Origin: Bacteroidota bacterium
GTDB lineage: Bacteria > Bacteroidota > Bacteroidia > Chitinophagales > Saprospiraceae
Direction: 5' to 3'
Assembly: GCA_018222965.1 (NCBI GenBank)
Contig: JAAEZH010000013.1
Location: 1 to 64,000 of the forward strand
Length of the DNA stretch: 64,000 nucleotides
Made by a program: the position numbers and the translations under genes. The notes under the pieces are model-generated. The model worked only from the letters and a program-made list of their open reading frames with translations, was not told the DNA's origin and did no database searches. Positions 39,960-42,503 of this stretch are shown piece by piece; position 1 is the first letter of the stretch; each line of letters starts with the position of its first letter.

Positions 39960-40013
39960 CTAATCGATTTTATGTCGCTAAGGTTTATCAGGCTTAAACA
40001 TCCTGACCGGGAG

Positions 40014-40021
40014 CGAAAATA
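40014..40021 (-). promoter_or_regulatory. Variant -7 box upstream of the amidohydrolase
   Basis: TATTTTCG (TAnnTTCG) on the minus strand, about 55 bases before the ATG. Confidence 0.35.
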
Positions 40022-40051
40022 ATAAAAAACCACGCCGTAAGAAGGCTAATA

Positions 40052-40582
40052 ATGGAACGTAAAGAACGCTTTGATGCTCTGGATGAAAATCTTGAATCGC
40101 TTTTCAGCGAATTGGGAGCATTCGACGAAAGTCGGCTCAACAAAAAACCGGGACCGGAAAAATGGTCTGCTTTGCAAACACTGGAACACATCCTCCTTGC
40201 GGAAGTCCTGACACTCAATTATCTGAAGAAAAAACTGAGTTACAATCCGACTTTAAAGCCTGCCAATTTTTTGACTGCCTTACGGCGAATGCTATTGAAG
40301 GTTTATTTGCGCTCCCCTTTGCCGTTTCCGGCTCCCAAACCGGTTTCTACAGAAAACCTTCCTGACCAAAGTGATTTTGAAGATTTAAAAACCCGGTTCC
40401 GGGCTCACCGAAAGGATTTTCGGGAGTTTGTGATCAGTATCCCTCAGGAAACCTACAATAAGCTGTTGTACAAGCACCTGGTCGTAGGACGTCTGGATGG
40501 AAAAGGGCTACTGGTATTTGTGGAGGAGCATTTTCGGAGGCATCGGAAGCAGGCGTTGAGAGCTGCTGGAGTTGAGAGTTGA
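40052..40582 (+). CDS. DinB/YfiT-like putative metal-dependent protein
   Basis: 176-residue four-helix-bundle protein of the DinB superfamily. The three expected metal-binding histidines appear to be H46 (LEHILLAE), H160 and H164 (EEHFRRHRKQ). Members include thiol-dependent transferases such as bacillithiol transferase BstA; the presence of bshC makes a bacillithiol link possible but unproven. The last codons and the stop lie inside the left inverted repeat of the following cassette, which may have replaced the original end. A palindromic-repeat variant is in frame (40277-40291). Confidence 0.78.
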   Translation: MERKERFDALDENLESLFSELGAFDESRLNKKPGPEKWSALQTLEHILLAEVLTLNYLKKKLSYNPTLKPANFLTALRRMLLKVYLRSPLPFPAPKPVSTENLPDQSDFEDLKTRFRAHRKDFREFVISIPQETYNKLLYKHLVVGRLDGKGLLVFVEEHFRRHRKQALRAAGVES

Positions 40583-40599
40583 GAGGATAGAGTTGAGAG
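40569..40599 (+). repeat. Left inverted repeat of the four-helix-bundle cassette
   Basis: GAGAGGATAGAGTTGAGAG (40581-40599) matches the reverse complement of 41121-41139 at 18 of 19 positions; GAGTTGAGAGTTGAG (40569-40583) is an exact 15-base inverted match to 41116-41130. GTTGAGAG occurs four times between 40555 and 40599. Confidence 0.75.
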
Positions 40600-40659
40600 A
40601 TTATTTGTTTAATATTCTTTAGATGCGAGTTTGGTGATGTAGTATTGGCCTAAAAAGCT

Positions 40660-41025
40660 GTGAAAACTGAATTTCCCTTTATGAAACTGAGGGTCTGGGA
40701 TAAGGCCAGAAATCTTAACAAAGAAATATATCTGTTAACCAATAATTTTCCAAAGTCAGAGTTGTTTGGCCTTACTAACCAAATGAGGAGATCTTGTGCA
40801 TCTATTGGTTACAATATTGCAGAAGGCTCAGGAAGAAACAGCTCAAAAGAAAAAGCAAGATTTACAGAAATTGCATATGGCAGTTTAATGGAGTTGGTAT
40901 CTCAATTAATCTATTCAAAAGACTTAGGGTTTCTAAGTGAAGAAAAATTAGAATACCATTTGGATAAATGCAAAGACATAGCCAAAATGTTAAGTGGTTT
41001 AAGAAATTCTCAACTTCGAACTTAG
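40660..41025 (+). CDS. Four-helix-bundle protein (S23/TIGR02436 family)
   Basis: 121-residue protein with the pattern of the family first found in intervening sequences of 23S rRNA genes: FPFMKLRVWDKARNLNKEIY, FPKSELFGLTNQMRRS, then IGYNIAEGSGR. Related small bundles (Avd) assist reverse transcriptases of diversity-generating elements, but no reverse transcriptase is near. GTG at 40660 is chosen because relatives keep FPF before the KLxVW motif; ATG 40681 is the alternative. The gene is visibly AT-richer than its neighbours and is enclosed by 19-bp inverted repeats, suggesting a mobile cassette. Confidence 0.85.
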   Translation: MKTEFPFMKLRVWDKARNLNKEIYLLTNNFPKSELFGLTNQMRRSCASIGYNIAEGSGRNSSKEKARFTEIAYGSLMELVSQLIYSKDLGFLSEEKLEYHLDKCKDIAKMLSGLRNSQLRT

Positions 41026-41115
41026 GTAATACCGCTCAACGCTCCCCGATAAACGATACACAATTGGAATTTAAAAAAGATTGTTTCGCAAACTGAGGGT
41101 TTCTCCTTAATTGCA

Positions 41116-41139
41116 CTCAACTCTCAACTCTAACCTCTC
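41116..41139 (-). repeat. Right inverted repeat of the four-helix-bundle cassette
   Basis: CTCTCAACTCTAACCTCTC (41121-41139), inverted partner of 40581-40599, ending 6 bp from the stop codon of the convergent nucleoside transporter gene. Inside it, AAACTGAGGGT (41090-41100) is a direct repeat of 40684-40694. Confidence 0.75.
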
Positions 41140-41145
41140 CCCTAA

Positions 41146-42474
41146 TCAAGCCAACACCCCTGCAATCGCTGCCGTTAAAAAACAAGCAACCGTGCCTCCG
41201 ATCAGTGCTTTAATACCAAATTCAGTGAGCGTTTTTCGTTGTCCGGGTGCGAGGGCACCGATACCACCAATTTGAATTCCGATCGAGGCGAAATTTGCAA
41301 ACCCACATAAGGCATAAGTGGCAATCAAAAGGGACTTCGGCGTAAGCCCTTCTTTTACCTGTTCCAATTCCGCGTAAGCGAAAAACTCGTTGAGGGTTGT
41401 TTTTAGCCCGAGCAGTTGACCAACCATGAGCGCATCCTGTGACGGCGTGCCGAGCAGCCAGGCAATGGGCTGAAAAAGTAAGCCCAGGATGTACTGCATA
41501 TTGAAACCGGTAAAGCGGCCGTCGGTATTTTCAGATACCATAGCATTTAAGCCTGTCCAGCTACCCACTCCAAACTCGAGAATGTAATTGAGCATTTCTA
41601 TGAAAGCGGTAAAAACGAGCAACATGGCTCCTACATTAACAGCCAGTCTGATTCCGTCTGATGTACCCCGGGAGATCGCATCCAGGACATTTGAACCAAT
41701 ATCCTGCTTAGGAATATCGAGCGTTTGATTTTCCATATCCACTTCCTCTGTTTCGGGATACAACATCTTGGCTGCAACAATAGCTGCCGGAGCGGAGATG
41801 ATAGAGGCGGTAAGGAGATGCGTCGCAAATTGTTGCTTCAGCACCGGATCGGTTCCCCCCAGAAAACCAACATAAGCGGCAAATACGCCTCCGGCAATGG
41901 TTGCCATGCCTCCGACCATCAGGCACAGTATTTCCGACTTGGACATTTTTTCCAAATAGGGCTTAACGACCAGCGGAGCTTCCGTTTGACCAATAAAGAC
42001 ATTCGCGGCAGCGGCCAGACTTTCCGCCCCAGTCAGACGCATCGTGCGTGTCATAACCCAGGCAAAACCTTTGATAATCAACTGCAAAATGCCCAGATAG
42101 TATAGAACGGCCGATAAAGCGGAGAAGAAGATAATGGTAGGCAACACCTTGAAGGCAAAGATGTAACCAACCGTAAACATCTCACCCGTTATGCCATCCT
42201 GGATGGCAGCAACTTCGGGCCATTGTCCTAATACGAAATTGGCTCCTGCTTCAGAAAAGTCAAGCACCACCACAAAGAAACTGGCGATGAAATCGAAAAT
42301 ATTTCGAATGAAGTCTACCTGCAGGATAGCCACAGCCAATACGATCTGCATCAGCAAGCCACTAATAACAAGCTTCCAATCGATCAGTTTTCGGTTGGAA
42401 GACAGTATGTAACAAATAAGAAGTAGTACCAGGACGCCCAGAGCGCCTCTGCTTAGGTCGATCAAAAATGACAT
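41146..42474 (-). CDS. Concentrative nucleoside transporter (NupC/CNT family)
   Basis: 442-residue inner-membrane symporter that imports nucleosides with protons or sodium. Family features: FVLGQ early, GQTEAPLVVKPYL, MVGGMATIAGGVFAAYVGFLGG, FNMQYILGLLFQPIAWLLG, LKTTLNEFFAYAEL and CGFANFASIGIQIGG. About ten membrane segments. The start is set at ATG 42474, not the in-frame TTG at 42498, because that TTG is part of an exact promoter box (TACATTTG) and would leave no leader. The 3' end abuts the inverted-repeat cassette. Confidence 0.92.
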   Translation of the reverse strand: MSFLIDLSRGALGVLVLLLICYILSSNRKLIDWKLVISGLLMQIVLAVAILQVDFIRNIFDFIASFFVVVLDFSEAGANFVLGQWPEVAAIQDGITGEMFTVGYIFAFKVLPTIIFFSALSAVLYYLGILQLIIKGFAWVMTRTMRLTGAESLAAAANVFIGQTEAPLVVKPYLEKMSKSEILCLMVGGMATIAGGVFAAYVGFLGGTDPVLKQQFATHLLTASIISAPAAIVAAKMLYPETEEVDMENQTLDIPKQDIGSNVLDAISRGTSDGIRLAVNVGAMLLVFTAFIEMLNYILEFGVGSWTGLNAMVSENTDGRFTGFNMQYILGLLFQPIAWLLGTPSQDALMVGQLLGLKTTLNEFFAYAELEQVKEGLTPKSLLIATYALCGFANFASIGIQIGGIGALAPGQRKTLTEFGIKALIGGTVACFLTAAIAGVLA

Positions 42475-42495
42475 GGATAAGGTATTGTCGTCGAC

Positions 42496-42503
42496 CAAAT
42501 GTA
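42496..42503 (-). promoter_or_regulatory. -7 box of the nucleoside transporter gene
   Basis: TACATTTG on the minus strand, 22 bases before the ATG at 42474; it begins 7 bases after the pdhB terminator stem. Confidence 0.55.

Follow-up and report, generated by a model that had tools for sequence, protein, structure and literature searches.

In this study we analysed a 64,000-nucleotide stretch of DNA (the window) from a Bacteroidota bacterium of the family Saprospiraceae, positions 1 to 64,000 of contig JAAEZH010000013.1, and in it a small cassette between a dinB-like gene and a convergent nucleoside transporter gene. The reading we prefer, whose chances we put a little under even, is that this is one copy, of about 580 bp, of a transposase-free cassette resembling the intervening sequences (IVSs) of ribosomal RNA (rRNA). 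Such a cassette would consist of a gene of the S23/IVP four-helix-bundle family between inverted arms of short tandem repeats, and we propose that the arms pair as RNA. The cassette and its neighbours are composed as follows.

40052 to 40582, forward strand: dinB-like gene (DinB_2), whose stop codon (40580-40582) and last codons are supplied by the left arm; its ortholog in a congener ends at the empty site.
40567 to 40599, forward strand: left arm, an imperfect tandem array of a unit of about 7 nt, AGTTGAG, G-rich on the sense strand; the left insertion edge lies at about 40567.
40622 to 40645, forward strand: promoter-like box GATGCGAGTTTG-N6-TAGTAT, with two mismatches to AATGCGAGTTTG-N6-TANNTT, common to other S23 copies and DNA-processing genes.
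40660 to 41025, forward strand: S23/IVP four-helix-bundle family gene of 121 amino acids with a GTG start.
40684 to 40694, forward strand: first copy of the 11-nt direct repeat AAACTGAGGGT, probably due to chance.
41090 to 41100, forward strand: second copy of the same direct repeat, probably due to chance.
41116 to 41139, reverse strand: right arm, the inverse of the left-arm unit.
41146 to 42498, reverse strand: convergent nucleoside transporter gene (nupC-like); the insertion ends just outside its stop codon.

A first-pass annotation, made from the sequence of the window alone, had described 19-bp inverted repeats with one mismatch and an exact 15-base inverted match on either side of a TIGR02436 gene, and our analysis bears this out. 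The inverted pair 40581-40599 and 41121-41139 agrees at 18 of 19 positions, and GAGTTGAGAGTTGAG at 40569-40583 is the exact inverse of 41116-41130. No other inverted pair of 19-mers with at most one mismatch lies inside 620 bp anywhere in the window, and within the window GAGTTGAGAG is confined to the two arms. Of 8,870 windows with the same geometry none reaches the local score of the arm pair (19, against a maximum of 18). The repeats are arrays of low complexity and not unique terminal repeats. The annotation was also right that the left repeat provides the end of dinB, with the stop codon at 40580-40582 inside the left arm, and that the right repeat ends 6 bp from the end of the transporter gene at 41146. 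The 11-base direct repeat it had listed, AAACTGAGGGT at 40684 and 41090, is present too, though by our own arithmetic one 11-nt pair per about 600 bp is near chance. The gene between the arms scores 130 bits against PF05635 (cut-off 33.8) and 123.5 bits against TIGR02436 (cut-off 24), and its relative of solved structure, by sequence match, is PDB 2gsc. It probably starts at the GTG at 40660, in the context aaaagctGTGaaaa, where some sister copies have ATG. It is the only listed open reading frame of at least 60 amino acids between the arms, which thus enclose no Y1 (HUH) transposase gene.

The comparison with relatives indicates that the cassette entered the dinB-nupC junction in this lineage. 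Homologs of NupC were found at E <= 1e-60 in 21 of the 24 genomes searched, its own included. Among the nupC loci fetched from the 20 others, a dinB homolog stands beside nupC in four, and S23 is found there in none of the four. A congener (genome G001) keeps the order amidohydrolase, dinB, nupC, dehydrogenase; the ends of its dinB and nupC overlap without an insertion, and neither inverted repeat is seen at this empty site. Alignment to it gives an insertion from about 40567 to 41145. Because the congener is distant, with dinB and nupC about 63-65% identical in protein (63-66% in a second estimate for nupC), no precise target duplication can be claimed. Locus L040 of the congener agrees at 100%, over two aligned stretches, with the named locus L232 from a Saprospiraceae MAG, to which the organism of the window is thus related. 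The first-pass annotation had named, as the pattern that would speak against a mobile unit, a gene and repeats fixed in all relatives and repeats unassociated with other family members. What we find is empty sites, inverted repeats beside other TIGR02436 genes, and some copies that disperse together with their repeats.

The inverted arms are a property of S23 loci in general, and S23 cassettes are a real class. The genome of the window has nine family members; in the eight loci inspected the arm sequences differ, save in the tandem pair L006/L007, and agreement between left and right is visible in several. (That pair, own genome C90:53018-53943, is a 614-bp unit with the S23 gene, tandemly duplicated at 98-100% identity.) We compared the inverted match between the two flanks of each locus with that between mismatched flanks in three samples: 77 cassettes of relatives, including those of the own genome, drawn from among the more numerous matches listed; named loci of Bacteroidota and other phyla, the best 80 of 535 matches; and 13 regions from 28 records of cyanobacterial plasmids. 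In 64 loci of the first sample (without both tandem L006 copies, both L035 copies, L028, L017, L022 and flanks under 250 nt) the median score was 24 for a locus's own flanks against 13 for mismatched ones, and 25 loci exceeded the 99th percentile of the control. So did 31 of the 91 loci kept from the 93 named and plasmid loci, and 7 of the 13 plasmid loci taken alone. Pooled over 154 loci (leaving out L006_871, both L035 copies, L232, which equals L040, L017, L022, L028, L282 and short flanks), the medians were 23 and 12. Here each locus was set against 60 mismatched left and right partners that carry the same strand bias; the own pair beat 95% of them or more in 99 loci and beat all 60 in 69, and inverted matches exceeded the control 99th percentile in 51.

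The arm units are short tandem repeats, mostly of 7-9 nt, that vary between copies while the left and right arms match inversely. Common periods are 7 and 8 together with twice these values, 14 and 16, and periods of 9 and 15 also occur. In the 72 of 77 loci with flanks of at least 150 nt, tandem arrays above the background 99th percentile lie in a near flank of 33, compared with 2 of 140 far flanks. GC skew is positive in 58 of 73 near-upstream and 20 of 76 near-downstream flanks and even in the far flanks (36/68 and 36/72). In the relatives' loci and the plasmids the G-rich strand is directed inward from both sides.

The neighbours of S23 were classed by orientation in 146 loci, taking long open reading frames, not annotated genes, as neighbours. 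Both are co-directional with S23 in 95 loci, both antisense in 22, convergent in 15 and divergent in 14, with a median inverted score of 22-25 in each of the four classes. The suggestion that the unit inserts at gene ends therefore holds for the window and is too narrow for the family: 117 of the 146 loci lie between neighbours that are co-directional with each other, on either strand, and some lie between transfer RNA (tRNA) genes. Among six tRNA-adjacent loci picked by eye, the S23 gene occupies the spacer of a tRNA gene pair in five (L036, L039, L045, L073, L076) and adjoins a single tRNA in the sixth. The pairs are Ser/Pro, Val/Pro (in three genomes, including this one and the congener) and Ile/Ala; Rfam confirms the tRNAs at three of the loci, and no more than a few bases separate the tRNA ends from the arms. 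By sequence reading, S23 stands between cysD- and cysN-like genes in five Saprospiraceae loci (L048, L055, L200, L202, L207), and L019 shares the cysD side only. A four-helix-bundle gene between gmk and nadD appears in the accessible text of PMC5524665. On cyanobacterial plasmids S23 is found antisense between annotated genes for two ribonucleotide reductase subunits, between Cmr2 and a Cmr3-family gene, between cas6 and cas4, and near a VirB10-like gene; S23 thus sits inside CRISPR-Cas clusters of these plasmids (L283, L287, L290). Phage records contained no S23 at E <= 1e-5. Three IMG/VR contigs with S23 gave inverted matches of 36, 35 and 25, scored without a control, the first two contigs being near-identical in the part compared.

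Some copies have evidently moved with their arms. In genome G019 three copies occupy unrelated sites and are 85-96% identical, up to where the TTAATGG arrays end, and copies on Nostocales plasmids share 78-82% identity ending at the arms. Several S23 copies lie at orthologous sites in different species. Nine of ten S23 pairs have a ratio of non-synonymous to synonymous substitution (dN/dS) of 0.02-0.16, several with dS above 1, and the tenth has 0.84 at a dS of 0.015; S23 is thus mostly under purifying selection. The first-pass annotation had proposed a small non-autonomous mobile unit. The insertion and the dispersal of some copies with their arms agree with this; terminal repeats of the conventional kind are not supported, given arms that differ between copies in one genome, no target duplication noticed, orthologous sites and low dN/dS. 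A conventional transposon resembling a miniature inverted-repeat transposable element, whose terminal inverted repeats would be the cutting sites of a transposase acting in trans, would account for the inverted ends, the empty site and the three G019 copies, and we nevertheless consider it very unlikely. The own-genome loci inspected differ in their arms outside the tandem pair, even if the G019 copies have arms in common, as have the Nostocales copies; where S23 occupies the orthologous cysD-cysN position, the unit changes from one genus to another (AGGTATC in L055 and GTTTAA-type in L048 and L207); and no target duplication was noticed by eye at the window or in dispersed copies.

A different possibility is raised by the promoter-like box. 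In the genome of the window AATGCGAGTTTG-N6-TANNTT has 11 exact matches, where the chance estimate is far below one, and 15 with at most one mismatch; with at most two there are 24, against 3 of the reversed pattern. It precedes seven of the nine S23 copies, the window copy with two mismatches, and one of the remaining two is cut by a contig end. The same box stands before genes for RecQ, a tyrosine recombinase, a PolB-type exonuclease, UPF0102/YraN, RadC, DUF2851 and a GxxExxY-type PDDEXK_3 protein, before a small protein without a Pfam match and before one with a sub-threshold PDDEXK match. The congener has 14 matches against 4 reversed. By sequence reading, and in some cases with two mismatches, these precede the orthologs of six (the exonuclease, a small zinc-ribbon-like protein, DUF2851, RecQ, a PDDEXK-like protein and RadC), one gene for a secreted-looking protein and four of six S23 genes. 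Over both genomes of the genus, 11 of 15 S23 copies share the box with recQ, radC and other DNA-processing genes. The loci L079, L080 and L100-L112 (own genome C16, C37, C39, C42, C52, C54, C87, C95, C105) form a candidate regulon, with six non-S23 members common to both genomes. We had considered the AATGCGAGTTTGG motif as an end of the element and rejected this; it stands upstream of recQ, radC and others, always at the same distance from a -7-like TANNTT, and is therefore a promoter box. The -7 element of Bacteroidota we take to be TANNTTTG. Across 38 genomes from other genera the box is no commoner than its control (143 matches against 151 reversed, at most two mismatches), with G016 (10 against 2), G011 (7 against 2) and G031 (9 against 4) slightly above it, and no similar box was seen by eye before DUF2851 in the other relatives inspected.

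S23 could on this evidence be a domesticated host protein of a DNA-processing regulon, with arms that merely insulate as terminators against read-through from both sides. The box common to S23, recQ, radC, the exonuclease, DUF2851 and others in two species and the purifying selection on S23 fit such a role. So does the number of inward stop codons, 876 against a shuffle mean of 824 (SD 18.5), though this is inside the shuffle range (maximum 883 of 300). We regard the idea as quite improbable, since most S23 genes lie between co-directional neighbours, including those at cysD-cysN and among nrd and cmr genes, where termination should harm; the box, moreover, falls to control level in other genera, and S23 copy number varies widely between genomes. 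Stop codons supplied by the arrays were also tried as the purpose of the 7-nt period and were discarded, the excess lying within the shuffle range.

Arrays without an S23 gene bear on the arms as well. Of 29 such solo arrays sampled (locus L338 was skipped in the rank and context counts), 27 are found between genes, and 16 have a gene's 3' end no more than 40 nt away, 14 of these being G-rich on the sense strand of that gene. Ranked by match to the S23 arms of their own genome, their units have a rank of at most 0.1 in 18 of 29 cases and a mean rank of 0.19; the solo arrays of G013 and G003 fail to match their own-genome arms best. The unit of the window occurs at seven further places in its genome, a count for which the reversed pattern gives no control, being the same heptamer. 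At four of the seven the unit stands in sense orientation downstream of a gene end, in three cases no more than 4 nt away and in the fourth 57 nt away. Solo arrays of the window heptamer follow gene ends at L423, L425, L419 and L420; in three of these the array adjoins the stop codon, and at L423 a terminator-like hairpin with a run of T comes first. The arms of the window might, then, be unrelated to S23, that is, arrays of a common heptamer at the 3' ends of the convergent dinB and nupC genes, between which S23 arrived separately. Although the seven further places and the preference of solo arrays for 3' ends point this way, we think it distinctly unlikely: inverted arms are equally strong where the neighbours are divergent or both antisense, in tRNA spacers only a few bases lie between a tRNA and the start of the arm, and neither repeat is present at the empty site of the congener.

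Array load also follows S23 across genomes. Sampled stretches held 2 arrays in 760 kb from eight genomes with at most one S23, compared with 28 in 894 kb from six genomes with at least four (three arrays within 1 kb of an S23 left out), and over 14 related genomes array and S23 counts have a Spearman correlation of 0.81. We further scanned 149 Bacteroidia genomes, 122 of which have S23, for a GTTNANN-type pattern in both readings, the reversed one being another heptamer class; the hits include the arms of S23 itself. Of the 122 genomes with S23, 82 contain the pattern, compared with 2 of the 27 that lack S23 (4.38 and 0.04 matches per Mb), and pairs within families are concordant in 82 cases, discordant in 27 and tied in 21. 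The association is real but not specific: rho with array load is 0.60 for S23, 0.61 for GxxExxY and 0.54 for the Y1 transposase (Y1_Tnp), and each keeps a partial effect in a rank regression (t 2.5-2.8). These controls, which track arrays equally, weaken a simple view in which S23 causes the arrays. An arrangement like that of REPINs and RAYTs, in which S23 acting in trans creates or maintains short tandem arrays that disperse as its non-coding dependants, is in our judgement unlikely. It would explain the match of solo arrays to own-genome arms and the higher array load with S23, both in the sampled stretches and per Mb. It sits badly with the equal performance of GxxExxY and Y1_Tnp, with five genomes that have a single S23 and more than 10 array matches, and with the lack of any 7-nt array in 50 kb of a Nostoc plasmid whose S23 lies elsewhere; the genomes are also related, so that the tests are not independent. 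Among other repeats, we noted 61-nt elements of period 16 (CAACCTGTCAGGTCGG...) in three copies within 9 kb (L194:10544, 13350 and 19003), and a related 16-nt repeat before the boxed small gene in L101.

Returning to the IVS-like cassette, we suggest that in its transcript the G-rich 5' arm would pair with the C-rich 3' arm and leave the S23 frame in the loop, as in the IVSs of 23S rRNA, where the stem is cut by RNase III; the same model may hold here, and we infer both pairing and cutting by analogy. A cassette whose arms pair in this way could be tolerated in operons, at gene ends and in tRNA spacers. What would matter is complementarity and not a fixed sequence, and for this reason units could turn over with the arms staying matched. 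The S23 protein would be made and selected for, and a promoter shared with DNA-processing genes in this genus would fit a role during DNA repair or exchange; S23 may itself act on the arms or in the movement of the cassette.

Several observations weigh against this proposal. The own pair fails to beat 95% of mismatched partners in 55 of the 154 pooled loci, and direct matches also exceed the control 99th percentile in 29, compared with the 51 inverted ones. No target duplication was noticed by eye at the window, where dinB and nupC of the congener compared have only about 63-65% protein identity, or at dispersed copies, and no mobility enzyme has been identified for the cassette. With solo arrays found after stop codons and convergent neighbours at the window, two independent 3'-end arrays could mimic an arm pair. 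In minimum-energy folds of the five tRNA-tRNA spacers, between 15 and 33 of the 60 bases at the start are paired with the 3' end; when both ends are shuffled (30 shuffles each), the means are 23-29, as much as in the real spacers. We therefore dropped the idea that these spacers fold more strongly than their composition, since complementary base composition alone suffices for the pairing. Finally, the authors of the Coxiella study consider S23 probably not expressed there (PMC4990558, in the part accessible).

The architecture may not be limited to S23. The boxed GxxExxY gene (L112:1577-2055) has 31-nt inverted arms, and among eight loci scored (a ninth, L378, with a score of 10, was left out, and 6 of 8 plasmid records were fetched) five exceed the 99th percentile (17.8) of 56 mismatched pairs and four the control maximum of 20, the sample being small. 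CACAGAG-type repeats occur at L112, L430 and L431, and some GxxExxY loci lie between operon-like genes, for example fabD-fabG; a search for close relatives found none in viral contigs. GxxExxY nuclease-family genes at L112, L430, L431 and L435 are a possible second cargo of the same architecture. A wider and, in our estimation, doubtful extension would make selfish bacterial cassettes a general class, united by architecture and not by a transposase, in which a small gene stands between inverted short-tandem-repeat arms in an operon, in a tRNA spacer or at a gene end. The class would have at least two unrelated cargo families, S23 (mostly with 7-8-nt units) and GxxExxY PD-(D/E)XK nucleases (with CACAGAG-type units). 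Until now only its rRNA IVSs would have been described, and the heptanucleotide repeats found in Bacteroidota and Cyanobacteria would have such cassettes as one source. Most Bacteroidia genomes sampled have S23/IVP genes, and inverted-arm cassettes give the arms a testable function in RNA pairing. Their presence in operons and tRNA spacers offers a mobile-element frame for rRNA IVSs, and S23 becomes a candidate gene, with the caveats above, for the origin of heptanucleotide tandem repeats, a lead on a poorly understood class.

Heptanucleotide tandem repeats are known in cyanobacteria as STRR. The arrays described here resemble them, as they do the TAACTGA repeats of PMC4679880, in being intergenic 7-nt arrays in Cyanobacteria and Bacteroidota, and differ in being paired inversely around S23. 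That 2015 paper on Beggiatoaceae gives no evident mechanism for the transfer of such repeats, and its main text, in the part accessible, does not mention S23, 'four helix' or 'intervening'. Among the matches listed in our search, which most subscription journals lie outside, we found no report linking S23 or four-helix-bundle genes outside rRNA with flanking heptamer arms. With REPIN-RAYT systems (treated in PMC8049555) the cassette shares a repeat-bracketed gene and copies of the repeats dispersed in the genome (seven places for the unit of the window), but it has no transposase gene between the arms and, in place of one conserved palindrome, a tandem-array unit particular to each locus. Avd of diversity-generating retroelements belongs to a related four-helix-bundle family, but the Avd-type profiles match the S23 of the window under their curated cut-offs (PF22296 at 29.2 bits against 40, NF033474 at 31.1 against 80), and the genes directly beside it are dinB and nupC.

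The first-pass annotation had set aside the link to rRNA IVSs. It was correct that no rRNA lies here, an Rfam search of 40000-42000 giving no rRNA match and one match far under its gathering score, but the link proves the most informative one. The IVS of Coxiella, according to the accessible text of PMC4990558, contains an S23 frame, a 28-bp terminal stem and tandem heptamers of variable copy number upstream of the frame, and is excised by RNase III. The same text calls the role and origin of IVSs unclear and cites earlier suggestions of a mobile origin. Alike in both are an S23 frame between terminal inverted repeats, heptamers beside the frame, a size of about 430-580 bp and a place inside a transcript. 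The window cassette differs in lying outside rRNA and in having a promoter-like box of its own. Cassettes of its kind differ in that a genome may have many of them, placed between the genes of operons, in tRNA spacers or at the ends of genes, and in an S23 mostly under purifying selection, where the Coxiella frame is described as decaying (PMC4990558, as far as accessible). The window cassette thus appears to follow the plan of an rRNA IVS outside rRNA, and by analogy its transcript may likewise be cut by RNase III.
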